42,822 bases of DNA from Lachnospiraceae bacterium (GTDB taxonomy: Bacteria; Bacillota; Clostridia; Lachnospirales; Lachnospiraceae): contig JAFXQR010000041.1 of the NCBI GenBank assembly GCA_017526985.1, positions 1 through 42,822 of the forward strand, in the 5' to 3' direction. The notes beneath the pieces were generated by a model, which was not told the DNA's origin, made no database searches, and saw only the letters and a program-made list of their open reading frames with translations. Positions 10,871-33,733 of the stretch are shown here, one piece after another; position 1 is the stretch's first letter; each line of letters opens with the position of its first letter. A program made the position numbers and the translations under genes.

Positions 10871-10919
10871 TCGGTCAAAAGCCTCCAAAGCAATAATATC
10901 TCAATTTACAATCCATGGA

Positions 10920-12483: not shown

Positions 12484-12614
12484 AACTGTTCGTAAATGAA
12501 TGCCGTATTTCCGAAATAGGCAAACAGAATTGTTAAAAATAACAGTAATACAACCAGCACTTTCCCCTTAAATGTTTTCATTGCAATATCTGTTTTACAC
12601 ATTCCTTTCAGCAT
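12480..12614 (-). CDS. 44-aa single-helix membrane protein, end of glycan operon
   Basis: Short ORF starting with [16 protein letters not shown] basic N-terminus is followed by one strongly hydrophobic helix (VLVVLLLFLTILFAYF) and a short tail ending FIYEQF. The ATG (12614) overlaps the end of the upstream glycosyltransferase gene by seven bases, with AAAGGA at 12626-12621, exactly six nt away. That looks like real translational coupling. The stop TAA overlaps the stop of the convergent C11 gene. I do not recognise a family. It could be a true small protein of the glycan machinery or the stub of a longer lost membrane protein. A bulged hairpin (12501-12522) within it may help end transcription. 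Confidence 0.5.
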   Translation of the reverse strand: MLKGMCKTDIAMKTFKGKVLVVLLLFLTILFAYFGNTAFIYEQF

Positions 12615-13750: not shown

Positions 13751-13780
13751 TTTCTGTCACCCCGCAAAACTGCTCCGGCT

Positions 13781-13939
13781 TTAATTCGATACTGCCGGTC
13801 TTCCTTCCGCTTCATTCACATCCAGTTTCGTCCAGTTATTCTCGTCAAATAGATTATCCTTTACATGATACCACCCCGGCTCTGAGTAACGGTCTCCGTC
13901 AAAGTTTTGTGCCTTAAATATTCTGTATAACCACAACAT
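13781..13939 (-). CDS. 52-aa aromatic, acidic protein of unknown function
   Basis: Begins MLWLYRIFKAQNFDGD, contains SEPGWYHVKDNLFDENNW and ends GRPAVSN. The ATG (13939) lies one base after the stop of the 668-aa membrane protein, with AGGAAG (13951-13946) six nt before it, so it is translated as part of the operon. An upstream in-frame ATG (13984) would overlap the previous gene by 44 bases and has no ribosome site. The protein is soluble, rich in Trp, Tyr, Phe and Asp/Asn, and has no membrane helix or signal peptide. No family is recognised. It could be a small accessory subunit for one of the neighbouring membrane transferases or a detached C-terminal piece of one. Confidence 0.65.
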   Translation of the reverse strand: MLWLYRIFKAQNFDGDRYSEPGWYHVKDNLFDENNWTKLDVNEAEGRPAVSN

Positions 13940-13940
13940 C

Positions 13941-15947
13941 TTAATCTTCCTGTGCAATAAACCGTAATTGCAACTGCCCTTCACTGTCGTATTCTACATG
14001 GTAGATCGCATCATCCACCATGCCCGGCCCTACCTTGGCGAAAAGTTCATGATAGGTATTGATATGAAAATCAACGATATTATCCAGATATACATAGGTA
14101 TAGCCTTCGGTTTTGATCAGATCCGCAAGTTCTTCTTTGGTCATCGTGAATTGGATCTCGCCGCCGCTCCAGCGATACGGATCGGCATTGAAATACAGTC
14201 CGCTGATGGCACCTGCGCCTGCCGGATATACTTCCCAGCCGAAATCCACAGACACATCCCGATACAGCTGCGGATCCATATAAAATACTCTGTCCTCTTC
14301 GGTAAGCGTGATCGTCCCGTTTTCGAGACACTGATGCACGACCGGAAATACATAATCTCTCTCTGAGCGATAAAAGATCTCTCCCACCGGATCCGTATAC
14401 ACACAGCCCAGCAGGAATACTCCGGCCACCAGAAGTACGGTATCTTTCTTCCATACTTTCACCGTTTGGAAGAATACCGCAGCCGTCGACAAAACGATCA
14501 CCGGCGCCACATAGGAAGCGATCTGCGGTACCGGATTGGCTTTCGGCATACGGATCACCGTAATATACAGAACACACAAAAGCATAAAATACAGAAATAC
14601 CCCAAAGATATAAGCAGCATGAAAAACATCCAGATACATACTCCCCTCCTCACTCTTATGATCTGTTTTGAGGTAGGATCTCTGATCGGATCTTCCGTTT
14701 AACTTTCCATGTGCGATACCGGAGACCGCCATCAGAATAAACAAAAAGGTGGTATCATAGATACGGATCACACGCCGTCCGATCACATATTCCGACTCCT
14801 CCGTTCCCATGAAAAGTTTATCCGTAAATTCCACAACTTCTTCGATCACATATTCCTTATACGGACTATGGCTCAGGATCAGCGTGACAACACCAAACGC
14901 CACCGCCAGTGCCATAACAAAGATGATCACCGCCATCTTCCGATAACCTTTGTTGTACATTCCGATCACCATAGCCATGAGCACACCGACAACGATCGAT
15001 ACCGCCAGACTGCCGGGAACGTACAGCAATGCTTTCCACGTGATCTCGTGATGTAAAAAGATATACAGATGCATTACAAACGCCAGCGTACATCCTGCAA
15101 ACAATGCCGGCACCAGCTGTTTTCTTTTTTTACGATTGTCTTTTGCAACTGCGCACCAGCCCACCATCAACGGGATCAGAGCAAACATTCCGTACCGCGT
15201 CATCACGCAGGAAACAAAAATACCATATGCAGCAAATAACACATCTCCTTTTCGTTCCGCACCGTGAACCATACGGTAAAAGACATAGAAGGTGTACACC
15301 ATCGCTGTCGTCTGCGGGATCACCATATCAAAACTGCGATACGCATCTTCCATTTTTAACAGTGGAAGAAACAGGCTCACAGCGATCATCAACATCCATT
15401 GCCAGTTTTCTTCCCGGATTTTTTTTATCTGATAAAACAATGGTAACACTCCGGAAACAATCAATACATCGTATGCAAAGATGCTCTTCCATTCGGAATA
15501 ACCACCCAGGATCCTGGTGCAAAAATACGCCCACAATGTTCCCAGCGGGAACGGATTGTTCAGATTGTAAAACGGGGAATGATCCCGCATAGAATCAAAG
15601 GAAAACATACTCCGCAGCGACGGACCATAGATCATCTTTACCGCATCAGTAATAAAATACCGATCCCGGGAATAAACGAAAAAGAATACCAGATATATGC
15701 AAAACGCCGCAAATCCGGGAGTCAGTACATATTTTTGAATCTGCTTCTTGTGCCCGATCAGAACAGCGATCGCCGGTACCGCCAGCAAAACCGCTGCGTA
15801 TACGCCGATCCGCAGATTCCCCACGATCCCGAAAATCGCAAGCACTGTGGTGATCAAACCAATCGCCGGAAACACCATCATCTCAAATCTTCTTTTAAAC
15901 CGTACCGCCAAAGCCGCAGCGATAGGCAGCAACACTAAAACACCCAT
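13941..15947 (-). CDS. GT-C-like polytopic membrane protein (668 aa)
   Basis: About a dozen hydrophobic helices through residue ~515, then a non-membrane C-terminal domain of about 150 residues (YRSERDYVFPVV to the end) with a Rossmann-like feel (TVEEDRVFYMDPQLY..., TYVYLDNIVDF). This arrangement, many helices plus an outside C-terminal domain, is typical of GT-C glycosyltransferases that use polyprenyl-phosphate sugars. An Asp-containing first loop (VYSRDRYFITDAVKMIY) is a possible catalytic site but is not certain. The start ATG follows GAGG at six nt. It sits 36 nt after the 890-aa membrane protein and one base before the 52-aa ORF. No exact family assigned. Confidence 0.75.
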   Translation of the reverse strand: MGVLVLLPIAAALAVRFKRRFEMMVFPAIGLITTVLAIFGIVGNLRIGVYAAVLLAVPAIAVLIGHKKQIQKYVLTPGFAAFCIYLVFFFVYSRDRYFITDAVKMIYGPSLRSMFSFDSMRDHSPFYNLNNPFPLGTLWAYFCTRILGGYSEWKSIFAYDVLIVSGVLPLFYQIKKIREENWQWMLMIAVSLFLPLLKMEDAYRSFDMVIPQTTAMVYTFYVFYRMVHGAERKGDVLFAAYGIFVSCVMTRYGMFALIPLMVGWCAVAKDNRKKRKQLVPALFAGCTLAFVMHLYIFLHHEITWKALLYVPGSLAVSIVVGVLMAMVIGMYNKGYRKMAVIIFVMALAVAFGVVTLILSHSPYKEYVIEEVVEFTDKLFMGTEESEYVIGRRVIRIYDTTFLFILMAVSGIAHGKLNGRSDQRSYLKTDHKSEEGSMYLDVFHAAYIFGVFLYFMLLCVLYITVIRMPKANPVPQIASYVAPVIVLSTAAVFFQTVKVWKKDTVLLVAGVFLLGCVYTDPVGEIFYRSERDYVFPVVHQCLENGTITLTEEDRVFYMDPQLYRDVSVDFGWEVYPAGAGAISGLYFNADPYRWSGGEIQFTMTKEELADLIKTEGYTYVYLDNIVDFHINTYHELFAKVGPGMVDDAIYHVEYDSEGQLQLRFIAQED

Positions 15948-15983
15948 AATAATCCTCGCAATCTATACTAAAACGCTACTCTC

Positions 15984-18656
15984 TTAAAAGTTTCCCTTAA
16001 TCAATTCATTTTCATAAAAGTTGTATTCCGCTTTGCCAAAAGGAATTGATTTAACCAGTCTGAAATACGGAACACTCTCACCATCAACAAGCAAATATTT
16101 CTTTCCTTTTGCAGACTCATAAAAATCCGCTTCATCGTATCCCCAACCAAGTCCGTCGCTCTCCAGTTCCCATCCCAGATTCAAATAAATGACACGCAAT
16201 CCCACAGCTTCACCATCCGTGTTCTCAGGCACTTCACATACAAAGTTTTTCAAATAAGAATCCACCCGTGAATAATCCGCAATTGCATGATCAAAAAGAT
16301 TGATTTTGGTATCACAAATAACAGAAGGCATCCTGCAAATATAAACAGAAACAACAAAGCACAAACAGATCCCGATAAAAAATGTCTTATTATGTTGAAA
16401 CATAATCAGATCATTTTGTAAACTATCATGTGTTTGCATCTCTGTTTCCTCATTTTTAACACTCTTTTTTGTCACGTACCGATCAAATACCACCACAATC
16501 AAACAAGCAATATACGGTGCTACGGGATTATAACCTTCCGGTCTTCCCATCCAGTAAACAAACATTCCTGCCGTGAATAACAATAACATCATAGCTTGAA
16601 GGTCCGTTCTTTTTAATTCTGTTCTTTTAAAGAACCCAAAACGCTCCAATAATACCGTCACTCCACCCATAAGAAAAATTTCTATATATACCCATGGTGC
16701 ATTTGTCCAATACAGTTTTCCATTACTGGTATCGCCGGCATTTTCTCTTGCCATGGTCGCCATTTCTTTTTTCCAGTCCAGGAATTCTGCCAGCGCACTG
16801 CCGTCAGACATGGTCAAAATATTATATGCTTTAATAATACTATAGGCTATCGCAACTTCAGCAACAACAAACATCATCTCCGCAATCATCTGCAATATTG
16901 TTTTTTTCAAAGTCACTTCCTTTTGAGACAGCAATGCAAGGCATACAGCCCAAGATACAGCACATACCAAACCGCTTTCGGGATTCCACAATATAGCCAG
17001 CATACAAATCAGATAACCTCCTAGCCGGCGTTTCCATGTCATTTGTTTTTCCTTCGTACATGCACAATAGTAAATCAGGACAAATGACCAAAACATGCGG
17101 AGCGGAAATGTCTGAAGATAAAGTTCCGAAATAACCAGATACGGCATAATCATGCATCCCATAATTATCCCGGATACATCATGTTTAAAATATCTATCCA
17201 TAGCCAGGAGTACAAACAGTATCGCAATCCCGGCAAATACAGCTGTTGTTACACCTATAGTTAAAAGATTATTCCCAAATATGAGCATTGGCAGCTTATA
17301 GAATAGGGCGAAGTGACCATACATTTGGTTTAGTCCACCACGAAAAGGTTCATTTCTGGCCACAAAATACATGGAATGATAAAACGTTCCCGTATGGTAA
17401 ACATCAGCCCACAGACCGGTATCCCACATGTTTATGACACAGGAATTAATACCTACCAAAATCGCTACTATACAATAAAAAATCTTTCGTACAATAGGAG
17501 GAATTGAAATTTTATCAGCATACTTTATACAAATGATAACAGCAACAAACGCAATTATATACTCCAATCGAAAACCAAACCATTCTCTGCCCAAAGCGTA
17601 AATACAAAGAATTGCGGCTATCAACGCTTCTCTTCGAATAAAATAAGACTTTAGTGTAACAATCAATCTTTCAGATAGTTTTCGTCCGCCCAAACCCAAA
17701 TACAAAAGAAGGAATATAACAAATACCACTATATATCCGGCTATTCTCTTACCGGAATCCTCCCCGCCGGTAAATATATGCAACAAACTTCCTTGTCTGG
17801 CTGTCAACATCAGAAAATGTATCGTCAATGCTATGGCTGCACATATGATTCCCCAGAAAGATGGATTTAGAACTTTTTCCCTATCTGTACTCTCATATCC
17901 AACCTTTGACTGACCACATATGACCGCAAATATTGACAGATATATAGTAAGCATTCTCGGAAGCATGATCCAAGTATCTTCCGATAAACTTATTACTGAA
18001 ATTTCCGAAACAAGAAGAAATACACCTCCCATTACCACACAGACACAAGCGGCTGCTTTTCTAAAACTTTCCGGCAACGCAACCGACCAAATGCAAAACA
18101 GAAGCATAAAAAACATCATCATAACAAGAGTGATTACTGTCCCTTGTTTCCAATGCTTCATATATGCACTATTGCTATAGTTTATATACAATCCATCAAT
18201 ACTTTGTTCAGGTGCACTACCATATGCGGAAACCACATATCCGTTTCTTCCGTCTGCCACAAAATGGAATCTCCCCCCCGGCTCAAGTCGAATCGGCTCC
18301 ATAACAGCTTCTACATCATTTCCATAGTAATCTGATACCGTATAAATACATTCCGCCAAACTATCATTTATTAATTCAATATCAGAGTAACGATTTGCCC
18401 AAAATATAATATGACCCAAGCGGAAATCATATCCCGAATCCAGGACAAACTCCTTTTCTTTTGCCGTCGAAGCATACCCCGTAAGTTCAGCATTATCAAA
18501 AGTCACTTCGCTACCGGAATAATTAAAATATGTAAATTGTTTAAACCACGCAAAAAGGCAAAGTGCAAATAAGCAACCGCAAATTATCAATTCTTTGCAC
18601 TTGGATATCTTTTTAATATTATTCAAATCTCCAAATACCCGCCTTCCAAAGCACAC
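15984..18656 (-). CDS. GT-C-like polytopic membrane protein (890 aa)
   Basis: Starts at a GTG (18656) that overlaps the TAG stop of the preceding fucosyltransferase by one base, with TTAAGG just upstream. Order: membrane helix (about 25-40); an extracytoplasmic domain (about 45-165) with FNYSGSEVTFDN and RLEPGGRFHFVADGRNG, resembling a beta-sandwich; many helices (about 170-770); and a short C-terminal outside region (YLLVDGESVPYFRLVKSIPFG). The size and plan fit GT-C transferases acting on the outer face of the membrane. I cannot point to a certain catalytic Asp. The stretch is visibly richer in A+T than the genes either side of the locus, which suggests separate acquisition. Confidence 0.7.
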   Translation of the reverse strand: MCFGRRVFGDLNNIKKISKCKELIICGCLFALCLFAWFKQFTYFNYSGSEVTFDNAELTGYASTAKEKEFVLDSGYDFRLGHIIFWANRYSDIELINDSLAECIYTVSDYYGNDVEAVMEPIRLEPGGRFHFVADGRNGYVVSAYGSAPEQSIDGLYINYSNSAYMKHWKQGTVITLVMMMFFMLLFCIWSVALPESFRKAAACVCVVMGGVFLLVSEISVISLSEDTWIMLPRMLTIYLSIFAVICGQSKVGYESTDREKVLNPSFWGIICAAIALTIHFLMLTARQGSLLHIFTGGEDSGKRIAGYIVVFVIFLLLYLGLGGRKLSERLIVTLKSYFIRREALIAAILCIYALGREWFGFRLEYIIAFVAVIICIKYADKISIPPIVRKIFYCIVAILVGINSCVINMWDTGLWADVYHTGTFYHSMYFVARNEPFRGGLNQMYGHFALFYKLPMLIFGNNLLTIGVTTAVFAGIAILFVLLAMDRYFKHDVSGIIMGCMIMPYLVISELYLQTFPLRMFWSFVLIYYCACTKEKQMTWKRRLGGYLICMLAILWNPESGLVCAVSWAVCLALLSQKEVTLKKTILQMIAEMMFVVAEVAIAYSIIKAYNILTMSDGSALAEFLDWKKEMATMARENAGDTSNGKLYWTNAPWVYIEIFLMGGVTVLLERFGFFKRTELKRTDLQAMMLLLFTAGMFVYWMGRPEGYNPVAPYIACLIVVVFDRYVTKKSVKNEETEMQTHDSLQNDLIMFQHNKTFFIGICLCFVVSVYICRMPSVICDTKINLFDHAIADYSRVDSYLKNFVCEVPENTDGEAVGLRVIYLNLGWELESDGLGWGYDEADFYESAKGKKYLLVDGESVPYFRLVKSIPFGKAEYNFYENELIKGNF

Positions 18657-19519
18657 TATACCTTAATCCTTATCCATTCCGGAAGATAGAAATTCTCATT
18701 CCATGTTCCTGTCTCCGGACAAATTACAATTCGATCGTCATTTTTGCTTAAATAAGCTGCCCACCAGCTGTAGGTACTGTTTGCAATAATATTGTATTTA
18801 CAACAACTCATAAGATACATATCATATACTACTTTATTTTCATTTGTATAATCCATGTATTTGATAATAATGTCTTCCCCGACACTCTTTTCAAGAAACT
18901 CTCTGGCATAATCAATATCATCCGAAAATACATATGCCACCAATTTCGAACATGTCGTCTTGCTTTTCAACAACTCTAATGCATCCAGATAATACTGCAT
19001 CGGAATTTCCCATCCAACCGAAACATAATCCCCCCGTCGTATATGGATTGATACACTATTATTTTTTTCTATTTCGTCCTGAAATTCCCGGATTGCATCC
19101 GGCTCCTTCAGTTTAATTATCTCAGTAAGCTCTTTCCGATATTCATCAAAATATCTGTAATTCTGCCAATATCCATCAAAATAGATATTCTCTTTTTCCT
19201 CAAATACTCTTTTATCAAATCCCAAATGATTTTCTTCTTTATATATCTTCGTTTTCAATCCTATTGCCAGACGTTTCATAATTCTGTTTGTCTTTAGCTT
19301 TTTCAAAAAAGGATTATAGGTGTAATAAAAAGATATTCTTTTTTTATACGGAAGATCAAACTTCAAAATCTCCAAGTACCTGTCTTTTATTCTTTTTCGA
19401 TCCAAAACAGATGTATCAATAATTAAACTACCGCCTGTCTTTTTTGCCACTGCATACCCGAATGCGTAGCAAAAAAGCTGATTTCCCAATCCCGCTTTTA
19501 TATCAACAATTACTTTCAT
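18656..19519 (-). CDS. alpha-1,2-fucosyltransferase, GT11 family
   Basis: 287 residues, the usual GT11 length. Family motifs: VDIKAGLGNQLFCYAFG at the N-terminus (acceptor side), SIHIRRGDYVS (H159; the HxRRxDY donor-binding motif), YVFSDDIDYAREFL and the C-terminal NSTYSWWAAYLS. It should use GDP-fucose (or a related GDP-sugar) in the cytoplasm to add an alpha-1,2-linked fucose to the glycan. The start ATG follows GGAG at six nt. It is tightly coupled to the downstream 890-aa gene (TAGTG overlap). GDP-fucose synthesis genes are not in the window. It is a paralogue of the GT11 at 23946-24803 but has clearly diverged and is more A+T rich. Confidence 0.92.
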   Translation of the reverse strand: MKVIVDIKAGLGNQLFCYAFGYAVAKKTGGSLIIDTSVLDRKRIKDRYLEILKFDLPYKKRISFYYTYNPFLKKLKTNRIMKRLAIGLKTKIYKEENHLGFDKRVFEEKENIYFDGYWQNYRYFDEYRKELTEIIKLKEPDAIREFQDEIEKNNSVSIHIRRGDYVSVGWEIPMQYYLDALELLKSKTTCSKLVAYVFSDDIDYAREFLEKSVGEDIIIKYMDYTNENKVVYDMYLMSCCKYNIIANSTYSWWAAYLSKNDDRIVICPETGTWNENFYLPEWIRIKV

Positions 19520-19544: not shown

Positions 19545-22097
19545 TCAAGGCTCTATCTCAGTCCAATTGTCACGAACGAACACATCTTCTTCAACATGAA
19601 GCCATTTCTGTTCTTCATACAAATATTCAAAGTAATCCGCCGGTGTCAATCCAAAATCAAAAGCGTACAATACATATAATCCGTCATTTTTCTTTTCAGA
19701 ATCTATTTTGTTCCCGGTATAGGGATTGACCGGATTCTCTATAACATCCTCCATTGCAATTGTAGGGACATCAGCATTGCACATAAGTTCATCGGATACA
19801 GACAATGTGCCATGCGCATCAAAGTCCTTCACCATAAGCATGCAATTTACACCCTCCAACTCCGTCACTTCATTATTTCCAAGATCAGGAAATTCCCCAA
19901 GAGATCTTCCATGATCGGATACTACGATTATCTTTGTATTGTCATACACGCCCTGCTCCTTGATGTAGTTCAGAAACTTTCCTATCTGAAGAAAGGCCGC
20001 CATATTAATATGATAATAGGAAGGCTGAGAGTCATCCTTAGCCAGATAAAAAACATTTCCCTCGTCATCCACCCTATATCCCGGTTCCTCCGCGCCCTCA
20101 TTTGTATGGCTGCTTGGGGTATAATCCGGAAGCTGGAGAGTCTGCTGGTCATGAGCGATGTCATTATTCAGGATTAAGAATGTATCCGTCTTCTCATCCG
20201 TAATCTCAGAAAGTCTATCAAGACGGTCCATCACCTCGTAGGCCTCCATGAAATGTGAGGAATACAATCCTCCCACATCCGAAACGCCTTTAGACGAAAA
20301 ATAAATACCACCGTCATAAACCGTTGTCTGGGCGATAACCGGCGTAATCTTGAAGAGACTATACCAGAAAAGATTTCTTTCACGCACGGACTCAGCATTA
20401 TCCAGCACATCCTCATCCATGTAGAACCCCATGGTTCTAAGCCCTTTTACGCCTTCCATATCATCATAAATAGACATATCGGGAACCAGCTGATATCCGG
20501 CATAGGGAATATCGCATAATGTTACCTCCCAACCATTTTCAGAAAAAAGTCTCGGCATTAGTGTGGTATATTCATAATTCTTTTCTTCTATGGTAACGTC
20601 ACTTCGTTGTCCGGAATAGTAAGGGATATACTCATACCCACCAAGCATCCCCGGGGAGCCTATGGCCGTATTACTCCCGCAGGATACCGTATTACGGTAA
20701 TAAACAAATCCGTCATACACTTCCTTCATCTCGGGCTTTTCTGCCGCCATATATGGCAAATATAAGCCGATCATAGCGTCAATGCTGAATACTATTATAT
20801 TCCTGCCGGTACGACTCAGCCTGAATATAGGCTCGTCATCACGCATTTTGCTCTCCAAAAGATATGAATTAGCAGTAATCTCCTGATTTATCGTTACAAC
20901 ATTGTACAGGCCGACTATAAGCAGCGCACCTGCCAGCACCCCACATAACTTCGATGTCACAGTGGGGATCTTTCTTCCCATCAGGAACATCAAAACTGCA
21001 ATGATCGCTATGACTATCATATTGACCATCTTTTCCCTGCCGGAAAAATGCGGGAATACAGCAAAAAACAAGTCTGCCGATATTATGCCAAGATTCTTAC
21101 CGAAAAACATATAGTCGGCAACTGCGACAACAGCGCCTATATTTATCACATGAAACAACACCTTCCTTATCCTTCCGGCCGAAATGTAGCAGAATACGGA
21201 AGTCCATACCAGAAAATAGCCTGTGGCTACCGCAAATGTCGAAACTACATAATGTACGGGATTCCTGGGATCCGCAGTAACGACAAATTCAGCAGCAGAA
21301 GAAGCTATCAGAGCAGAGGGTATCACAAGCCCCATTAATATGGTAAGAACCAGCTGGGCAGGTATCATGTCCTTCTCCCACCTGCCGGATTTCTCTGTTC
21401 GGGTCTCCCTGCTTTCCTTCTTTTTAACAGGAATAAACTTCATCACTACATTCTTTCCAAGCGAAAAAATATTATTCAGAGTCCAGTAGAAAACAAGCCC
21501 GGAAGGACTGTCGTAGAGCAGCACCAAAAAAACCGCTGCCACCAGGTAGGTCTGTATCTTGTTCTTTAAAGGATAACCCCTAAGGTATATCGCAGCGGAA
21601 CCGAAATTTATCAATGTCATGAGTACCGGCAGGACATTGACAGATACACCACCTATATGCAGCAACGCATCAGGTGCGCTAAGGTTCTTTATCGGCCCCA
21701 GCGCAGCCCCGTTTAGATCCTGAAGGTTTGACAGAAAATGAAAAGCCGCAATGAAAAAAGGGATCTGAAGAATCGTTGGAAGCAGCACCTTGATCACACT
21801 GCCCGGCTTATAATCCATCTCCCTATAATACGCCTGGAGTATCATGAAACGTTCATCACCGGAAAATGTCTTATGTATTCGATTTATCCACCCCTGCATG
21901 CTTTTCTGTTTTTCATTTTCCTCTGCCTGGATAGTATCCGCCCGAAGGTATATAGGCAATATCAGAAGATTCACCACCAGGCTGACGCCTATGATGACAT
22001 ATCCCGGATTCCCGATGATTCTCTTAAGAAAGACATATACAAATTCCAATATATACTCTATCGGAATAATAAATATGTTATATAGAATGGTTCCCAT
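19545..22097 (-). CDS. YidC/Oxa1 domain fused to an alkaline-phosphatase/LTA-synthase-type transferase domain
   Basis: 850 residues. Residues about 1-222 are a YidC/Oxa1 module: IIGVSLVVNLLILPIYLRA, LLPTILQIPFFIAAFHFLSNLQ, VLPVLMTLINFGSAAIY and SGLVFYWTLNNIFSLGKNV match its core helices. The groove Arg that in Bacillus SpoIIIJ precedes LLILP is Asn43 here. Residues 245-405 hold more membrane helices. Residues 430-850 are an alkaline-phosphatase-superfamily domain: NIIVFSIDAM (D440), GSNTAIGSPGM (T477 is the likely nucleophile), NNDIAHD (H649) and KIIVVSDHGRSLG (D728/H729) supply metal ligands. LTA synthases and phosphoethanolamine transferases have the same plan. Likely role (inference): add a phospho-substituent such as phosphoglycerol to the glycan outside the cell. 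It begins 235 nt after the upstream gene. Confidence 0.85.
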   Translation of the reverse strand: MGTILYNIFIIPIEYILEFVYVFLKRIIGNPGYVIIGVSLVVNLLILPIYLRADTIQAEENEKQKSMQGWINRIHKTFSGDERFMILQAYYREMDYKPGSVIKVLLPTILQIPFFIAAFHFLSNLQDLNGAALGPIKNLSAPDALLHIGGVSVNVLPVLMTLINFGSAAIYLRGYPLKNKIQTYLVAAVFLVLLYDSPSGLVFYWTLNNIFSLGKNVVMKFIPVKKKESRETRTEKSGRWEKDMIPAQLVLTILMGLVIPSALIASSAAEFVVTADPRNPVHYVVSTFAVATGYFLVWTSVFCYISAGRIRKVLFHVINIGAVVAVADYMFFGKNLGIISADLFFAVFPHFSGREKMVNMIVIAIIAVLMFLMGRKIPTVTSKLCGVLAGALLIVGLYNVVTINQEITANSYLLESKMRDDEPIFRLSRTGRNIIVFSIDAMIGLYLPYMAAEKPEMKEVYDGFVYYRNTVSCGSNTAIGSPGMLGGYEYIPYYSGQRSDVTIEEKNYEYTTLMPRLFSENGWEVTLCDIPYAGYQLVPDMSIYDDMEGVKGLRTMGFYMDEDVLDNAESVRERNLFWYSLFKITPVIAQTTVYDGGIYFSSKGVSDVGGLYSSHFMEAYEVMDRLDRLSEITDEKTDTFLILNNDIAHDQQTLQLPDYTPSSHTNEGAEEPGYRVDDEGNVFYLAKDDSQPSYYHINMAAFLQIGKFLNYIKEQGVYDNTKIIVVSDHGRSLGEFPDLGNNEVTELEGVNCMLMVKDFDAHGTLSVSDELMCNADVPTIAMEDVIENPVNPYTGNKIDSEKKNDGLYVLYAFDFGLTPADYFEYLYEEQKWLHVEEDVFVRDNWTEIEP

Positions 22098-22332: not shown

Positions 22333-23922
22333 TCAATGTAACCTGTAGATTTTTATTTCTCTTTCAAAACTTCCCACCATGATCGGATAAACACCGCATA
22401 AATCATACGAGGATAAAATATCTCCATCCATATCATACTCATATATTTCATCATCGATAATGATATACTCTGCTTCCGCATTCAATATTTTATTCCTCAC
22501 ACTATGTGTTTCATTCTGAAAACAGTCATAAATATCCTTTGCATACGGAAAAATCAACTGTAGTTGCTTGTCATTATTCCATTTATCCATCACTTTGTTG
22601 TTTATATATTGACACTCTCCGGCATCTATAGTATTCAACCCATTTCTAATACAATAGAACGCAAATGGCGAGCCAAGTATAAGTACATCATCTGACGGTC
22701 TGCACTCTCTGATCGTATCCATTTCATTATACAGTTTTTCCCATTCTGACAATTGCGAATCATCCAGAGATCTGTTTAGCGAATAGGGAACCATCGGAAC
22801 AAGCAGTAAAATAGCGAGGATTGCATAAAACACTCCTCCTTTCCATCCGTCAGTCCCAATCCCTTTCAATAACGGATGATTGGATTTGCTGCCCGTAAAA
22901 TTGTCAGTTCCAAACACATAGGCCTCACAAAACAACATAATAAGCGCGGGTACCAGCAACTGCAAAAAATACGTCAGCCATGTTCCGTTGTTTCTTCCAA
23001 AATAAACTGCAACGAAAAGCATACAGAAGAAACAAATCAGCGGAAATCCAAAAAAATGCTCCACGCTTATTTTTTTCTTTATAAAACCTGCTCCTCTGTA
23101 TAGCACATATGCTGCAACAGCTACTATCGGCAAAGGAAAAAGCTTCCCTAAAGCCACTAACTGTTTTAAAGAATATAGTATACTATAATCAGGACTACCG
23201 GACATATACAGAACTGCTTCCGTAAAGTATAACGGAAAAACAAGATTTACAACAACTATGCTGGATGTGCAAAGAATCGCCCCGGCTATCATGAACTTTA
23301 AGAACTCTCTCTTTTCATATACCAGGAAATAAACGGCAATGCCCAGAAAAGTGAACGCAAAATATATTTTCGTGTAAAACATAATCGTAACAATGAATGC
23401 CAGAAGAACGGGATGCTGTTTTCCTTTTTCTATACCCACGACAAAAACATAATATAACAGCATCGCCAAAAACAATCCCAAAGCATCCGGAAATACACCA
23501 CCATATACTGTATATCTCCAAAAGCAAGCATATAGCATGCTTGCCGATAACAGAGCCAGTTCCCATCTCTTATGTTTTTTATATATAAGAGCGCCCATTA
23601 ATATACAAGCACTGATCTTATAAACTGCATAACAGATCGTTGATGTAATCAGTACAGACAAACCCGTCACTGCCGACACTGCTCCGGCAACAAACGGGGC
23701 CATAAAACCATACATATAAAAAACCGGCATTCCTCCATTGGAAGGCATAATATAGGGATTTACTCCGGATGCAAACTGTGATGCTATAGCAATAAGCGTA
23801 CCTTCCCTGAGTTCTTTTGGGATATCCGGGTATATCCAACATCTCAATTCAAGTACAAAGCAACAGAAAAGAAAAATAATACACAATAATTCTATTAATC
23901 GTATCGGTTTTTTTTCTATCAT
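22333..23922 (-). CDS. GT-C-like (PMT/GT39-type plan) membrane protein (529 aa)
   Basis: About ten to eleven hydrophobic helices between residues 10 and 375, then a soluble outside domain of about 150 residues (LNRSLDDSQLSEWEKLYNEM to the end) with RPSDDVLILGSPFAFYCIRNG and AEAEYIIIDDEIYEYD. The first outside loop contains YPDIPKELREGTLIAIASQFASG with nearby Asp/Glu, where GT-C enzymes place catalytic acids, followed by NPYIMPS. It is predicted to move a sugar from a polyprenyl-phosphate donor to the glycan outside. The start ATG is preceded by GGTGA at seven nt; it lies 23 nt after the GT11 gene. The exact family is not certain. Confidence 0.75.
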   Translation of the reverse strand: MIEKKPIRLIELLCIIFLFCCFVLELRCWIYPDIPKELREGTLIAIASQFASGVNPYIMPSNGGMPVFYMYGFMAPFVAGAVSAVTGLSVLITSTICYAVYKISACILMGALIYKKHKRWELALLSASMLYACFWRYTVYGGVFPDALGLFLAMLLYYVFVVGIEKGKQHPVLLAFIVTIMFYTKIYFAFTFLGIAVYFLVYEKREFLKFMIAGAILCTSSIVVVNLVFPLYFTEAVLYMSGSPDYSILYSLKQLVALGKLFPLPIVAVAAYVLYRGAGFIKKKISVEHFFGFPLICFFCMLFVAVYFGRNNGTWLTYFLQLLVPALIMLFCEAYVFGTDNFTGSKSNHPLLKGIGTDGWKGGVFYAILAILLLVPMVPYSLNRSLDDSQLSEWEKLYNEMDTIRECRPSDDVLILGSPFAFYCIRNGLNTIDAGECQYINNKVMDKWNNDKQLQLIFPYAKDIYDCFQNETHSVRNKILNAEAEYIIIDDEIYEYDMDGDILSSYDLCGVYPIMVGSFEREIKIYRLH

Positions 23923-23945: not shown

Positions 23946-24803
23946 TCAAATACATATCCATTTCTCAGACCAAGTCTTTTTATCAGCATAGTTATTTGTC
24001 TGTGGATATATCACTCTTTTATCCCGGTTCTCGTTTAGCCATGCCGCCCACCAACTATAAGTACTTCGTGATATTATCTGGTGAGAGCAAACCCTCATCA
24101 ACTCAAAATCCTCAAGATCCTTCATTTCAGATGTATAATCCATATACCTGAAATCATAATCCAGACCATTAAAGGCTTTCCGCACCCATTCAAGATCCTC
24201 GGAAAAGCAGTAAAACACCGCACCTTCGCCCAGCAATTCAGCCATTCTTTGTACAGCGCTCCGGTAGTACTCCTCATTATGGGCTATTCCTATCTTTACA
24301 TAGTCTCCGCGTCTTACATGAACTGCCACACTCCGTGGATTATCTGACATCTCAGCCTTTAAAGCTGCCGCAGGGACAGAAAGCTTCTCTTTGTATACGT
24401 ACATCCTGCGAATATCATCCTGATACTTTTCAAAATATTGAAGATGCTGCCAGTCTCCGACATAATATACGGTTGTTCCCTTTTTATGACCCGCTAAAAT
24501 TTCCGGATCATAATGCTCCTTATCCCTTTCCTCTATCGTCGGAGTAAATAACCCCAGGCTCCTTCGCCTGTAGAAATGATTCCAGAAAAGATGGTCTATT
24601 TTTCTGTCTCCAAGCGGATAACAGATTTTCTTATCAAACTCTATATTATAGTGGGCAATATCATAGTTTCTGAAAAACCAGGGTGCCTCTTGGGTTGAAG
24701 TATCCAGGGCATATACATCGCCGGTTTCCTTTGCCAGCTGGTAACCTGCCGCGAATGACCACAACTGATTACCAAATCCTCCGCTCAACCTGAATATTAT
24801 CAT
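23946..24803 (-). CDS. alpha-1,2-fucosyltransferase, GT11 family (second copy)
   Basis: 285 residues. Motifs: IIFRLSGGFGNQLWSFAAG at the N-terminus, VAVHVRRGDYVKIG (H162), FYCFSEDLEWVRKAF and SRSTYSWWAAWLNE near the C-terminus; all are typical of GT11. It should use GDP-fucose in the cytoplasm. The start ATG (24803) shares the ATGA overlap with the stop of the upstream ABC transporter, so translation is coupled. Two GT11 enzymes in one locus suggest two different fucose linkages or acceptors in the repeat unit. Confidence 0.92.
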   Translation of the reverse strand: MIIFRLSGGFGNQLWSFAAGYQLAKETGDVYALDTSTQEAPWFFRNYDIAHYNIEFDKKICYPLGDRKIDHLFWNHFYRRRSLGLFTPTIEERDKEHYDPEILAGHKKGTTVYYVGDWQHLQYFEKYQDDIRRMYVYKEKLSVPAAALKAEMSDNPRSVAVHVRRGDYVKIGIAHNEEYYRSAVQRMAELLGEGAVFYCFSEDLEWVRKAFNGLDYDFRYMDYTSEMKDLEDFELMRVCSHQIISRSTYSWWAAWLNENRDKRVIYPQTNNYADKKTWSEKWICI

Positions 24804-26524
24804 ACTATACTCACCTGCTTATCCTCAATTTTATAAACCACATCGCACTTCTCTATCGTGCTGAGTCTGTGTGCAATGATCAGCATTGTCTTTGTTCCAT
24901 GAAGGGCATTGATCGAAGCCATTACTTCACGCTCCGTCTCATTATCCAATGCCGATGTAGCTTCATCAAAAACAAGAAAATCAGGGTTACGGTAAAGTGC
25001 CCTCGCAATTCCGATTCTCTGCCGCTGCCCCCCGGAAAGTTTTGTTCCTCGTTCCCCAACAATAGTGTCGAGACCATTATCCAGTTTCTTTACAAAATCC
25101 GACAATTGAGCTTCCTCAATCGCTTTCCAAACCCTCTCATCATCTATCTTTTCTTTCTCTATGCCGAAAGCAACATTATTCCTTATGCTTTCATCTGAAA
25201 GATAAATAAACTGCGGGATATACCCTATGTGATCATGCCACCCTCTGACACTCTCCCTTATGGAAACACCATCCACAGTTACCTCGCCGGACTGTGGTTC
25301 TAACAATCCGAGAATTATATCCGCCATCGTAGTCTTTCCCTGACCGGAAGGTCCAATGAATGCTACAGACTGACCTTTTTCAATTTTTAATCTGACATTC
25401 TCGACAATATTCCTATCAGATTTTTCATAATGAAAGGAAACATTATTAACCTCAATACATCTTTCAAATGACAAAGGACTATAGTCAGCCTCATCAGTAT
25501 CTGTACTCGTATTTTCCGTAGCCTTTATATCCCTATACACCAGATCAATCGAAGCTCGATTAAAAATTACTGTATTCACATACGCATATATGGAATTCAC
25601 ATAAGGAAGCAGTTTGAATGCTGCCACAGCAAAGATCGCCAACTGCGCTACCAGTGTCTTATAATCTCCCTTCCGAACCACACACAACATAAGATATGCC
25701 AGTATACCACATACACATACCGTTTCTATCATATACTTGGGAAGAACATTGATCAATTTACTTTTAAGCTGAAGAGAACTCTGGTGCGCATATTCTTTAT
25801 CATATTGTTTCTCATAATATTTCTCAGTGTTCAGGATCTTTATTTCCTTTATTCCCTCAAAAGCCTGCTGCACATACTTTATAAGCTGCGCGTTGCTTCG
25901 CTGAACCTCTTGTCCCCAGCGCCTGGTTATATTTTTTCCGCCAATAAAGATACTGCCCACACATACGATCAGGAGTGCTGATACAGTAAGCGCAAGCAAC
26001 AAATTGGTATATGCAAGATATACCACCAGCGTCATTGATGTAAGCCCCAGGGACAAGACCATGATCAGGTTGTTCACCACCTGGAAAACATTGGATGTAT
26101 CGTTATTAACGCTTCTGATTATTTCTGAGGAATTCTTATTCAGGAAGAAAACATAAGGTTCTTTTAAATACGCCTTCATGAGTCTCGCAGCCAGCTGGCG
26201 CTTCACATCATTGGCAAATTGTTCGTTATAAGCATTCATCCAGGCAAGATAGACGTTTTTTACAACATAGACAACCATAGTGATTACCATCAGATATATG
26301 AATGTCCCCTCGAAACCGTCTGTCCCAAATACCTTTTCCACAGTCTGATATGCAAAATTATCCGTTGCATGGTCTGTATCCACCGCAAGATTAATAATAG
26401 GAAGCAGAATAGATATTCCCAACAATTCCAGAGCTGAACCAATGATAATGATCAGGAGTACAAAAAGCATCCTTTTCTTCGTTCTGTTTTCTAATAAATA
26501 GTTAAGTTTCTTTATATATTCCAA
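24800..26524 (-). CDS. ABC exporter half-transporter, PglK-like lipid-glycan flippase (second copy)
   Basis: 574 residues: six membrane helices (about 18-310) fused to an ATPase domain. ATPase motifs: Walker A GPSGQGKT (391-398), signature LSGGQ (496-500), Walker B FLVFDE (516-521), D-loop SALD and H552. The start is TTG (26524) after AGGTAAAG. The N-terminus (ENRTKKRMLFVLLIIIIGSALELLG) resembles PglK/WlaB-type flippases, which move undecaprenyl-diphosphate-linked oligosaccharides across the membrane as homodimers; a heterodimer with the ABC protein at 28636-30399 is also possible. It lies 6 nt after the HxRRGD-motif transferase and overlaps the GT11 gene by four bases. Confidence 0.88.
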   Translation of the reverse strand: MEYIKKLNYLLENRTKKRMLFVLLIIIIGSALELLGISILLPIINLAVDTDHATDNFAYQTVEKVFGTDGFEGTFIYLMVITMVVYVVKNVYLAWMNAYNEQFANDVKRQLAARLMKAYLKEPYVFFLNKNSSEIIRSVNNDTSNVFQVVNNLIMVLSLGLTSMTLVVYLAYTNLLLALTVSALLIVCVGSIFIGGKNITRRWGQEVQRSNAQLIKYVQQAFEGIKEIKILNTEKYYEKQYDKEYAHQSSLQLKSKLINVLPKYMIETVCVCGILAYLMLCVVRKGDYKTLVAQLAIFAVAAFKLLPYVNSIYAYVNTVIFNRASIDLVYRDIKATENTSTDTDEADYSPLSFERCIEVNNVSFHYEKSDRNIVENVRLKIEKGQSVAFIGPSGQGKTTMADIILGLLEPQSGEVTVDGVSIRESVRGWHDHIGYIPQFIYLSDESIRNNVAFGIEKEKIDDERVWKAIEEAQLSDFVKKLDNGLDTIVGERGTKLSGGQRQRIGIARALYRNPDFLVFDEATSALDNETEREVMASINALHGTKTMLIIAHRLSTIEKCDVVYKIEDKQVSIV

Positions 26525-26530
26525 TTTTCT

Positions 26531-27613
26531 TTACCTGAACGCCCAGTCAATCCACTCTTTTATATTCTTTCCTTTTAACACGCCTTCTTCGTCTGCCCTG
26601 CACCATTCATCATTATCCGGGACAATTAACCAGTCTCTGTCCGGTACAATTTTCAATCCACGGCATATTGCACCTGCTTCTATTGAGAACGAACTGGGAG
26701 CCGCCAGAATGATATCAGCATGACAGATATGGAGAAAAGAAGCCGGGCCCGCCATATCCAGACAGAATGTGATCTTCAACCTCTTACCATTGTTCATAAC
26801 AATGTCAGTCAGTTCAGCAAAATTCTCCTCCCGGCCTTCTGAAAAAACATAAAAATGCAGATCCTTTTTATTCCCGGCTTCCGGACAATTCTCTGCGAGA
26901 TCCTTCATTAAGCGAGTATAATAGCCAAGTTCCATCCACCTTCTGTTCATGCTTGCATCGCCGAGATTACGAAGAGTTTCCACATCACCTCTCCTGATAT
27001 GAACCGCCACATTAATCATCGCCGGATCATATAATAATCTGTCTTTTTTTCTCTGGCCGGATGCCCAGAAGATCTCCCGGATCAACTCATCTCCACGTAT
27101 ATCATCACCTTTTTTGGTCCATTGCTCATATTCATTAAAAAAGACAACTTTTTGTCCGTTATAAGAAGCCATAATATCACGTATCAATCCAAGACTTTCT
27201 TCAGACGACATATCATAATATGGAAGCAGCACCTTCTTATAACCCTTCCGGATCAGCTCATCTGCCTGCGGAAAACTCTCTCCCAGTCCCAGCACCTCAT
27301 CCCACTCTTCATTCACCATTTTAGAATAGGCATAAGACGCCGGAAGCAGTGTAGATGCGATCAATCCGGCTCTCCATGCTCCCAGTCCGTGTCCAAATCC
27401 GGCCAGATATGCCGGTTCCTCCGTAATAAAATGTGAGGTTTCTCCATTTACAGGCTTTTTATTTCTGTGCCGATACGAGCGATACAACGGATATGCTTTC
27501 TTTTTATCTCCTACCTTACGGTAAAACATACCATGTATCTTTCGTATTGCTTTTTGTTTTATACTTGCATAGTCATGCTTATCTTCTTTTTTTTTACTTC
27601 TGTATCCTGCCAT
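26531..27613 (-). CDS. putative fucosyltransferase-like glycosyltransferase (HxRRGD motif)
   Basis: 360 residues, no membrane helix. The N-terminus is very basic (GYRSKKKEDKHDYASIKQKAIRK). A glycine-rich loop FGHGLGAWRAG (about 73-83) and NVAVHIRRGDVET (H205) match the two donor/acceptor motifs of the GT11/GT23/GT65 fucosyltransferase fold, and the C-terminal ADIILAAPSSFSIEAGAI takes the place of the STYSWWAA motif of GT11. It is not a clean GT11 match, so the sugar is open; a GDP-sugar donor is the best guess. The start overlaps the end of the upstream GT2 gene by 20 bases. Confidence 0.65.
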   Translation of the reverse strand: MAGYRSKKKEDKHDYASIKQKAIRKIHGMFYRKVGDKKKAYPLYRSYRHRNKKPVNGETSHFITEEPAYLAGFGHGLGAWRAGLIASTLLPASYAYSKMVNEEWDEVLGLGESFPQADELIRKGYKKVLLPYYDMSSEESLGLIRDIMASYNGQKVVFFNEYEQWTKKGDDIRGDELIREIFWASGQRKKDRLLYDPAMINVAVHIRRGDVETLRNLGDASMNRRWMELGYYTRLMKDLAENCPEAGNKKDLHFYVFSEGREENFAELTDIVMNNGKRLKITFCLDMAGPASFLHICHADIILAAPSSFSIEAGAICRGLKIVPDRDWLIVPDNDEWCRADEEGVLKGKNIKEWIDWAFR

Positions 27614-28658
27614 TATCTTTGATACTTTCTAACCATCCGTATAGCGAAGGAAAAATATAACACACTCCATATAATACTTTGCGTTTCCCTTCCCATTTTC
27701 TTCTATCGTAATTCCGATATAATGTTCTGAATTGTTTTGCCAGTTTTTTTCTTTCTTGTTTTTCCTCCGGAAGATTCTTTCCAACCAGATAATAATACTT
27801 CAAATACGCCGACAGCTGATAGTATTCTTCTCTGAGTGCATATTCCTGCTCCCCATGTTTCAGATAAAAATCTCTTCTTCGTTTGTATGCGTTCAGTACA
27901 TCCATACGCTTTAACGAAAAATCATTTTTGGTAATACTGCCAGAACGTTCCCTGTAAAAATACAATTTCAAATCAGTCCATGCAATTATATCAGAATAAT
28001 ATAAATATGCAAACGTGGTCGCTTCATCTTCATAAACATACCCTTCCGGGAACAAAAAATCTCCGATCACATCACGTCTGTACAGTTTATTCCATGCCAC
28101 AACTGTATCGATGTGTACCTTCATATCATAAAAGCGATCCAATACCTGTCTCGAAGTATACTCTGTATATTTAGATTTCTTGTTATCAGAGCTGTCTGCC
28201 TCTTCCGTACCCTTATCACTTAAAATACTACCGTCTGCAGTTATTATGGAAATACCTGCCACAGCCACTTTGCTTCCCGATTCCACACACATTTTATACA
28301 AAGTTTCGACAAAAAGCGACGATACCCTATCATCAGAATCTATAAAGCATACATACTCTCCTTTGCATATCCCGAGCCCGGTATTCCGCGCTGCTGATAA
28401 ACCTCCGTTTTTCCGATGTATAACAGAAATCCTGTCATCCGTTTCTGCCAGTTCGTCACATATAGTCCCGCTTTCATCCGTTGAACCATCATCAATTAGC
28501 AAAATCTCCAGTTTGGAATACGTCTGGTGCCTTACACTTTCCACGCATTCCCTGAGATAATCCTGAACATTATATACCGGTATAATCACGGAGATCAGCT
28601 GGTCAAGCGTATTACTTGTCCCATTTATATCTATTTTAGTTTCTTTCCGTAAGCTCAC
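27594..28658 (-). CDS. glycosyltransferase family 2 (GT-A)
   Basis: 354 residues from the GTG at 28658, which has AGAGG nine nt upstream. A TTG at 28691 is in frame but has no ribosome site and would overlap the ABC gene further. The GT-A core begins LISVIIPVYNVQDYLRECV and shows LLIDDGSTDES, NGGLSAARNTGL, CFIDSDDRV (DxD-type metal site) and VYEDEATTF. The C-terminal part is helical and basic. It is predicted to be a cytoplasmic inverting transferase adding one sugar to the lipid-linked glycan. It overlaps the gene before by 23 bases and the gene after by 20, evidence of a tightly packed operon. Confidence 0.88.
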   Translation of the reverse strand: MSLRKETKIDINGTSNTLDQLISVIIPVYNVQDYLRECVESVRHQTYSKLEILLIDDGSTDESGTICDELAETDDRISVIHRKNGGLSAARNTGLGICKGEYVCFIDSDDRVSSLFVETLYKMCVESGSKVAVAGISIITADGSILSDKGTEEADSSDNKKSKYTEYTSRQVLDRFYDMKVHIDTVVAWNKLYRRDVIGDFLFPEGYVYEDEATTFAYLYYSDIIAWTDLKLYFYRERSGSITKNDFSLKRMDVLNAYKRRRDFYLKHGEQEYALREEYYQLSAYLKYYYLVGKNLPEEKQERKKLAKQFRTLYRNYDRRKWEGKRKVLYGVCYIFPSLYGWLESIKDNGRIQK

Positions 28659-33718: not shown

Positions 33719-33733
33719 TGTGGCCGTCTCCCG

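Follow-up and report, generated by a model that had tools for sequence, protein, structure and literature searches.

A YidC/Oxa1 core fused to an alkaline phosphatase-superfamily domain in a Lachnospiraceae glycan locus, and its recurrent TagF-like partner

Results

Organization of the locus

The window analyzed here is the whole 42,822-nucleotide stretch of DNA from a Lachnospiraceae bacterium (assembly GCA_017526985.1, contig JAFXQR010000041.1). One minus-strand gene within it encodes a protein that joins a YidC/Oxa1 core to an alkaline phosphatase (AlkP)-superfamily domain. Glycosyltransferase and ABC transporter genes lie around it, in agreement with the placement inside a glycan locus made by an earlier, sequence-only reading of this DNA. 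The features referred to below are as follows.

9560..10888, minus strand: TagF-like CDP-alcohol phosphotransferase, 442 aa, of the 'YIDPGTGSMLF' family, with an N-terminal hydrophobic helix (PF04464, E 7.1e-13)
12608..18656, minus strand: GT4-type glycosyltransferase and two large proteins without a Pfam match (668 and 890 aa)
18656..19519, minus strand: GT11 glycosyltransferase, directly downstream of the fusion after a 25 nt gap (PF01531)
19545..22097, minus strand: YidC-AlkP fusion protein, 850 aa (ATG-started ORF, Pfam, AlphaFold model)
19548..20825, minus strand: AlkP-superfamily domain of the fusion, residues 425-850, with D440, T477, H649, D728 and H729 (PF00884, Foldseek)
20871..21380, minus strand: five additional membrane helices of the fusion, residues 240-409 (AlphaFold, hydropathy)
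21438..22004, minus strand: YidC/Oxa1 core of the fusion, residues 32-220, with an N-terminal helix ahead of it (PF02096, AlphaFold)
22333..23922, minus strand: GT-C-like membrane protein (weak PMT_2 match, below cut-off)
23946..24803, minus strand: second GT11 glycosyltransferase (PF01531)
24800..26524, minus strand: ABC transporter, membrane and ATPase domains (PF00005/PF00664)
27594..28691, minus strand: GT2 glycosyltransferase
28636..30399, minus strand: second ABC transporter, membrane and ATPase domains
31140..32750, minus strand: Capsule_synth-like protein (weak Glyphos_transf match, just under cut-off)
32756..34942, minus strand: DUF6625 protein and GT4-type glycosyltransferase

Architecture and conservation of the fusion

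The sequence-only reading had described a single frame made of a YidC core within residues 1-222, extra helices and an AlkP domain, and had proposed searching the two halves separately against Pfam. In such searches, residues 32-220 matched 60KD_IMP (E 4.6e-21; 75.9 bits against a cut-off of 35), and the Sulfatase family was matched with E 6.1e-9 (36 bits against a cut-off of 25; best stretch 704-741). The NCBIfam model yidC_oxa1_cterm matched with E 1.8e-21, yet its score of 77.1 bits lies below the cut-off of 84.3.

The structure predicted by AlphaFold from a 60-row alignment (mean pLDDT 88.7, pTM 0.86) has YidC-type helices up to residue 221, five helices in residues 240-409 and a mixed alpha/beta domain from residue 425. 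The YidC part is predicted to comprise a five-helix core and a cytosolic helical hairpin (helices 31-77/80-93 with the hairpin, 98-123, 155-171, 177-194 and 199-221). By both the model and hydropathy, the AlkP domain is preceded by five helices, as in transferases of the LtaS/EptA type. LtaP and MCR-1 were the first two Foldseek matches (TM-scores by target of 0.49 and 0.38), with PbgA also among the first solved folds and sulfatases interspersed. The description 'LTA-synthase-type' holds only at the level of fold; among the NCBIfam matches of the fusion there was no LtaS model, and the EptA model P_eth_NH2_trans scored 15.6 bits against a cut-off of 500.

Altogether 122 fusion-type ORFs were collected, the window's included, from other genera and differently titled families as well. 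Residues were counted in the window's protein and 100 others, leaving out ORFs of loci L040-L047, ORFs shorter than 820 aa and matches covering less than residues 10-795; L043, L045 and L046 were dropped as duplicates of L124, L062 and L058. The five residues named by the sequence-only reading, D440, Thr477, H649, D728 and H729, are identical in all 101 aligned full-length proteins, the window's own among them. By analogy with LtaS and EptA, they are putative metal ligands and, for Thr477, the likely nucleophile. The YidC-AlkP fusion is real. A plasmid origin was also considered, and the plasmid collection gave no match at E 1e-20.

A TagF-like partner recurs beside the fusion

The window's TagF-like protein, encoded 8.6 kb from the fusion, scores 48.7 bits with PF04464 (cut-off 22.1), is 53% identical to the partner at locus L122, and has TagF as each of its first six Foldseek matches. 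It lies outside the coordinates covered by the sequence-only reading, in the same window, and was not mentioned there.

Neighbor counts over 84 loci were made by six-frame search, a greedy longest-ORF count having overlooked shadowed genes. A TagF-like frame lies on the same strand within 300 nt of the fusion at 59/84 loci and within 1,500 nt at 62/84; anywhere in the examined stretch, the figure is 63/84, window included. Conversely, 61 of the 65 TagF-like frames in the examined stretches are such neighbors of a fusion. These loci are partly dependent, given that L060 and L084 share one contig, L041, L042 and L124 one genome (G004), and L089 and L100 another. No TagF-like gene was present in the examined stretch at 21/84 loci, several of which are short or cut contigs; at least 20 kb was examined in L049, the closest relative, and in L061, L066, L077, L109, L111, L124 and L042.

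The three domains also occur in single chains. The host genome encodes one protein of the order YidC-TagF-AlkP (contig C136) and another of the order AlkP-YidC-TagF (C51). YidC-TagF proteins were found at 7 further loci, with an AlkP gene adjoining in 4/7 and none nearby at L155 and L156. AlkP relatives without YidC are located elsewhere in genomes G022, G135, G190 and G196, so that AlkP is not always found with YidC. All homologue queries carried YidC, TagF or AlkP from this system, and within that scope the TagF-like, YidC and AlkP parts form a recurrent three-way partnership.

The YidC part compared with canonical YidC

The positively charged groove residue of YidC is called strictly conserved in one account (PMC8920935). 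The sequence-only reading had correctly given residue 43 of the fusion as Asn (Asn in 94/101 aligned proteins, Ser in 6/101 and Cys in 1/101), and had taken this as a sign that the YidC part may have been repurposed. The host's canonical YidC, however, has Tyr at that column, and when 10 canonical YidC rows drawn from loci of this GTDB family were aligned, the residue was Tyr in 5 of them and Asn in 2, such that the positive charge is absent in 7/10, as in the fusion. Given that canonical YidC of this family often lacks the charge, its absence is no sign of repurposing here, and Asn43 was dropped as proof.

Canonical YidC is a separate gene in 14/15 system-bearing genomes; it appears as two broken frames in G135 and with an internal stop in G109. 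Trees with canonical YidC, built from 17 of the residue-count proteins and 15 loci out of a set of 30, placed the fusion class in one clade on its own long branch with support of 100/100. A single clade for both fusion classes was rejected in a 36-row tree (p-AU 0.002) and was not rejected in a 52-row tree (p-AU 0.108), in which starred branches still separate them. Two separate recruitments of YidC may have occurred.

Head-group genes

Genes for choline activation and aminoethylphosphonate (AEP) synthesis accompany part of the loci. A LicC-like gene was found at 30/84 fusion loci, by a profile that may also match other nucleotidyltransferases, choline kinase at 15/84, a LicB-like gene at 8/84, and PEP mutase and phosphonopyruvate decarboxylase at 5/84 each. 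At 54/84 loci, the window among these, no LicC-like gene was in view. In the host genome, contig C15, which is not the fusion's contig, carries PEP mutase, phosphonopyruvate decarboxylase and AEP aminotransferase, all over curated cut-offs, together with a LicC/PntC-like gene.

PEP mutase over cut-off was found in 8/15 system-bearing genomes, a set assembled after the first data were seen, and in 13/185 others (Fisher p 1.5e-5); without the host, the count was 7/14 (p 7.8e-5). This comparison assumes that its 200 genomes were the same draw across its searches. In 7/15 system-bearing genomes PEP mutase over cut-off was missing. A search of the host genome for choline kinase gave no match, and choline was rejected as its head group; 2-aminoethylphosphonate is the probable one. 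LicD gave four matches in the host genome, on contigs C73 and C202, and none on the window's own contig (C113).

Discussion

The reading that we favor, and to which we give an even chance, assigns the fusion to a machine of three parts that puts small phosphorus-linked, mostly amino-alcohol groups on surface glycans, the fusion forming its membrane and outer portion. In the cytosol, a LicC/PntC-type enzyme would provide the CDP- or CMP-activated head group, which the membrane-anchored TagF-like partner would take off the nucleotide and attach to a lipid of the membrane (diacylglycerol, a glycolipid or a polyprenol). The membrane groove of the YidC domain would then carry the polar head of this lipid to the outer leaflet. 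There, the AlkP domain would accept the group at Thr477, D440, D728 and H729 coordinating a metal, and would pass it to a glycan hydroxyl. We infer the lipid loading and the flipping, as well as the acceptor and the host head group. The reading draws on the recurrent partnership, the three-domain chains, the head-group genes with their PEP mutase association, and the folds of the fusion and its partner. Counting against it are the 21 loci without a TagF-like gene in the examined stretch, the 54 without a LicC-like gene, the seven system-bearing genomes lacking PEP mutase over cut-off, the 8.6 kb between fusion and partner in the window, the YidC-TagF loci L155 and L156, the AlkP relatives that occur apart from YidC, and the position of the host's AEP genes on another contig. 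More tentatively, an insertase fold would have become a dedicated flippase, and the TagF-like/YidC/AlkP machine would place zwitterionic groups (choline, aminoethylphosphonate, ethanolamine-like) on surface glycans by way of lipids. The sequence-only reading had suggested that the YidC part might guide a lipid donor to the active site. The recurrent TagF-like partner, the three-domain chains and the scrambling of lipids in vitro by E. coli YidC (PMC10491306) are in keeping with this idea, which is retained here as a conjecture.

Each part of this machine has known relatives. With the YidC/Oxa1/Alb3 insertases (PF02096), the fusion shares the core helices, the cytosolic hairpin and a Pfam score over the cut-off; it differs from them in its fused enzyme, long-branch clade, groove Asn and glycan locus, and in coexisting with a separate housekeeping YidC. 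It resembles LtaS/LtaP and EptA/MCR in the succession of five helices and an AlkP domain, and in the Thr and metal ligands of that domain, and departs from them in the YidC core in front and the recurrent TagF-like partner. GacH/SccH-type glycerol-phosphate transferases are themselves AlkP-type. Like the fusion as proposed, GacH/SccH of streptococcal wall polysaccharides are membrane enzymes that transfer a phospholipid head group to a surface glycan, SccH taking GroP from phosphatidylglycerol (PMC11754754); the likeness is drawn from the activity described, and YidC is named nowhere in that paper (0 occurrences). The same source describes three-part glycosylation by a polyprenyl-P sugar synthase, a flippase and a GT-C enzyme, with loading inside, flipping and transfer outside (PMC11754754). 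In the proposed machine, a phospho head group would replace the sugar, a YidC fold the flippase and AlkP the GT-C enzyme.

Some fusion loci contain genes of the kind known from the Lic and Pnt pathways of phosphocholine and aminoethylphosphonate decoration (LicA, LicB-like, LicC/PntC-like, PEP mutase, decarboxylase). The transfer step here would fall to TagF-like, YidC and AlkP parts. The C. difficile flagellin type A pathway (CD0240-CD0244) likewise has a LicC-like cytidylyltransferase and a TagF-like transferase, a pair proposed to bring phosphothreonine through CDP-threonine to a sugar, but the acceptor is GlcNAc on flagellin and no YidC or AlkP part is named in the account consulted (PMC10714395). 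In C. difficile, AEP itself has been detected on the GlcNAc that flagellin carries (PMC8861647). As a counterpoint to a lipid product of the TagF-like part, its proposed counterpart in C. difficile works on a protein-borne sugar.

The YidC domain could instead be a scaffold or private chaperone for the AlkP and TagF-like parts, the lipid reaching the outer leaflet otherwise, an explanation that we consider possible but somewhat unlikely. The YidC helices and cytosolic hairpin retained in the predicted structure would suit it, as would the double character of YidC proteins as insertases and chaperones (PMC8920935). Against it stand the separate canonical YidC of nearly all system-bearing genomes and the occurrence of YidC with both other parts in the arrangements seen, the search having been aimed at arrangements that contain YidC. 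LtaS, EptA and SccH, moreover, are not known to depend on a YidC-type domain.

It is unlikely that the TagF-like partner works in the cytosol on larger molecules, building or modifying glycans linked to a lipid or short chains of teichoic type, which YidC helps to move and AlkP extends or attaches outside. TagF proper is a polymerase and the nearest fold of the partner, the window is a large glycan locus, and CD0244 of C. difficile is proposed to act on sugar; however, the two ABC transporters of the locus could already export such molecules, and single decorations agree better than polymers with the choline or AEP genes that some loci carry. An ordinary second insertase fused by chance to an unrelated enzyme is very improbable: the Pfam score, the retained hairpin and a groove-charge loss that is non-diagnostic in this family would allow it, but the single clade (100/100), the conserved residues in both halves and the recurring TagF-like partner argue against it. 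Misassembly or a frame artefact joining two genes, a concern of the sequence-only reading, is ruled out by full-length homologues in many other genomes.

In the literature searched, from which subscription papers were mostly absent, no title or abstract was found that describes YidC fused to AlkP/sulfatase or TagF, and the main text of a 2009 YidC census contains neither 'fused' nor 'fusion' (PMC2706819). In the fusion, an insertase core is joined to an enzyme whose substrates are probably lipid head groups, so that the scrambling reported in vitro (PMC10491306) would become a testable biological role. If the more tentative flippase reading is true, members of the YidC/Oxa1 superfamily would have a physiological job in lipid transport. 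The module may also provide the as yet unassigned transferase that uses CMP-aminoethylphosphonate and CDP-choline in Clostridia of gut and rumen, whose zwitterionic surface groups are important in host contact. In phosphonate pathways, the steps after C-P bond formation have been called enigmatic, with LicD-like genes named (PMC6697681); the missing transfer step of some tailoring pathways would be supplied by the machine proposed here. For such genes, the first-domain name 'membrane protein insertase YidC' would mislead.

Domain Architecture of the Fusion Protein

The window genes considered here are as follows.
9560-10888, minus strand: TagF-like gene, on the strand of the fusion
10993-12483, plus strand: Clostripain-family peptidase gene, separating the TagF-like gene from the glycan genes
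19545-22097, minus strand: YidC-AlkP fusion gene (AlkP, alkaline-phosphatase superfamily), frame encoding 850 amino acids

The sequence-only reading placed a YidC core, extra helices, and an AlkP-type domain in this last frame. That architecture was borne out by Pfam, which placed 60KD_IMP (E 4.6e-21) at residues 32-220 and also matched Sulfatase (E 6.1e-9), and by the layout of an AlphaFold model (pLDDT 88.7, pTM 0.86): YidC helices with a cytosolic hairpin come first, five more helices follow across residues 240-409, and an alpha/beta domain begins at residue 425. The NCBIfam YidC domain model scored 77.1 bits, slightly below its cut-off of 84.3. With a profile built from 60 homologues, the first part of the protein matched YidC structures in the PDB and the last part matched sulfatases/phosphonate monoester hydrolases. 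The top Foldseek matches were LtaP, full-length MCR-1, and PbgA (moderate TM-scores by target of 0.36-0.49), interspersed with sulfatases; all of the first 50 were AlkP-type, with no YidC chain among them. The proposed site residues D440, H649, D728, and H729, together with Thr477, were identical in 101/101 aligned full-length fusion proteins.

Distribution and Copy Number

The fusion is a widespread family. Within the GTDB family of the host, 25 of 150 genomes matched the protein somewhere, in many cases through a sulfatase or canonical YidC only. Fusions were present in the host, G004, G022, G036, G049, G109, and, in more diverged form, G052. Three copies were found in G004, a member of the host's genus. 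A profile search matched 9 of 200 genomes at E 1e-30. Scanning of a contig collection gave at least 563 stretches encoding a relative at E 1e-3, possibly including canonical YidC, of which the best 80 (78 loci; identity 35-66%) were retained. By record title, most of these best 80 belong to Lachnospiraceae, Oscillospiraceae, Ruminococcaceae, or other Clostridia; Coriobacteriales, Atopobiaceae, Erysipelotrichaceae, and a single Treponema metagenome-assembled genome are also represented.

More than one fusion-type frame, some partial, was observed in 23 of the 84 loci used for neighbor counts. In locus L065 (1-20808), eight such frames form a tandem array in ∼20 kb, two of them resembling halves of one broken gene; L078, L098, and L103 also hold arrays, with some frames partial. 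That such arrays encode a repertoire of decorations is a testable idea. Two host contigs end, at their starts, inside additional fusion-type genes, with the YidC part beside a gyrB-like gene (C152, L038) and the AlkP part beside an mreB-like gene (C127, L039; both neighbors named by eye). Thus, the host carries at least one additional copy.

A Recurrent TagF-like Partner

Clustering of the neighbors of the fusions revealed a 430-amino acid protein with an N-terminal hydrophobic helix, the motif YIDPGTGSMLF, and a Glyphos_transf (TagF) match. In six-frame profile counts, a TagF-like frame lay within 300 nucleotides of the fusion on the same strand at 59/84 loci, within 1,500 nucleotides at 62/84, and anywhere in the available stretch at 63/84; 61 of the 65 TagF-like frames were fusion neighbors. 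The window partner, 53% identical to the protein of locus L122, lies 8.6 kb from the fusion and is overlain by a longer shadow frame on the opposite strand. The first six structure matches to its predicted fold (pLDDT 87.2) were TagF, and a smaller profile from six partners gave sequence matches to Cps3D and TarL. The best TagF-like gene of G004 is on a different contig from the fusion, adjoining a PEP mutase gene. At L045 (12534-14696), the partner has 721 amino acids, with a long C-terminal extension that includes a hydrophobic helix (by eye) and is absent from the five others aligned.

The three components were also found as single chains in the host: YidC-TagF-AlkP (1,420 amino acids, C136) and AlkP-YidC-TagF (1,198 amino acids, C51), both exceeding the Pfam cut-off for every one of the three domains. 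YidC-TagF proteins (frames of 633-681 codons) were observed in seven further loci, in four of which (L154, L157, L159, and L160) an AlkP gene adjoins at gaps of up to ∼420 nucleotides; none was in view in L155 or L156, and L158 stops at a contig edge. AlkP relatives without YidC occur elsewhere in G022, G135, G190, and G196. In the three-domain chains, simple hydropathy allows TagF to lie inside and AlkP outside, a topology that we infer from a crude measure: four of five YidC helices were resolved, one segment in the C136 TagF part is likely false, and AlkP outside in C136 requires a seventh, weaker helix (score 1.31) between TagF and AlkP.

Head-group Genes

Gene classes whose representatives were named by Pfam included, at the 84 fusion loci, LicC-like nucleotidyltransferases (30), choline kinases (15), LicB-like (EamA) permeases (8), PEP mutases (5), and phosphonopyruvate decarboxylases (5). 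Some loci encode a nucleotidyltransferase-PLP enzyme fusion, for which threonine-phosphate decarboxylase scored best, below cut-off, in two examples; candidate readings are an ethanolamine- or aminopropanol-like group, or a 2-aminoethylphosphonate (AEP) aminotransferase, as described for Treponema denticola PntC (PMC6697681). On host contig C15, a LicC/PntC-like gene lies among genes for AEP aminotransferase, PEP mutase, and phosphonopyruvate decarboxylase, these three scoring above their curated cut-offs; choline kinase had no match in the host genome. Across 200 genomes, PEP mutase exceeded cut-off in 8/15 with the system versus 13/185 without (p = 1.5e-5), and in 7/14 system genomes when the host was excluded (p = 7.8e-5).

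Proteins of 589-609 amino acids matching both LicC-like and LicA profiles were seen at L064 (3416-5185), L069, L071, L074, L104, and L105, with an N-terminal stretch resembling a winged helix (by eye). Four LicD-type matches lie on host contigs C73 and C202 (L164 and L165), and conventional LicD-type transferases may thus coexist with the module.

Proposed Mechanism

TagF-like enzymes take alcohol phosphate from a CDP-alcohol. The module probably works by loading inside, flipping by YidC, and AlkP transfer outside: the TagF-like part would load alcohol phosphate from a CDP-alcohol onto a lipid, the YidC domain would then move the loaded lipid across the membrane, and the AlkP part would take the head group off it outside. 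That the intermediate is a lipid and that it is flipped are inferences, as is the identity of the acceptor. The main argument that YidC could supply the crossing step is that it accompanies TagF and AlkP in both split and fused forms, the arrangements searched being those containing YidC. Membrane AlkP transferases act outside, drawing a head group from a lipid, which for SccH is phosphatidylglycerol (PMC11754754). Escherichia coli YidC, like other Oxa1 proteins, scrambles phospholipids in vitro (PMC10491306, preprint). The proposed logic resembles known inside-flip-outside decoration; the difference is an insertase fold in the flipping position. Although the component families are known, no description of the YidC-AlkP-TagF combination, the recurrent third partner, or the shuffled single chains was found in titles and abstracts of the literature searched. 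The module would fit at the steps following C-P bond formation, called enigmatic in PMC6697681.

Groove Residue and YidC Phylogeny

Asn43, at the Lys/Arg site of YidC/Oxa1 insertases, had been taken as a sign of repurposing; this does not hold, given that the groove residue is not diagnostic and is Tyr in the canonical YidC of the host. Ten same-family canonical rows had Tyr (5), Asn (2), Lys (2), or Arg (1), and the other canonical rows had Lys or Arg in 16/16 (15 of the 30 best-scoring phylum-sample loci plus E. coli). The groove Lys was kept in 9/9 YidC-TagF proteins. The Lys/Arg that is called strictly conserved is lacking in L001 (the host canonical YidC), L015, L017, L021, L025, L026, and L030.

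Trp205 of the fusion, invariant in 101 aligned proteins, probably sits at the place of Streptococcus mutans W234. According to PMC8920935, S. mutans R73 is dispensable only when W234 is made polar, whereas E. coli tolerates groove-charge loss next to an aromatic residue; given this contrast, Trp205 gives no indication in either direction. Tree analyses recovered the YidC-AlkP class as one clade and the YidC-TagF class as another (100/100 each), with canonical rows separating the two. Forcing them into one clade, which bears on one versus two YidC recruitments, gave p-AU values of 0.002 (36 rows) and 0.108 (52 rows).

Other YidC Frames and Minor Observations

A separate housekeeping YidC gene was found in 14 of 15 system-bearing genomes, as two broken frames in G135 and with an internal stop in G109; none was seen in G052 (84% complete). 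Among 119 genomes across the phylum, 60KD_IMP matches over cut-off outside the host lay in frames of at most 434 amino acids, and four genomes had no match. A weak match (26.2 bits, below cut-off) in G252 (C11, 31191-31451), within a 1,126-amino acid frame, is possibly another YidC fusion. A YidC with a Gram-negative-type periplasmic domain (L048, 907-2451) is encoded on a short contig from a genome assigned to the host's family and is possibly foreign DNA. A DUF6625 protein is encoded in the window glycan locus (32756-33718) and also immediately upstream of a fusion in the host's genus (L043, 7926-8882).
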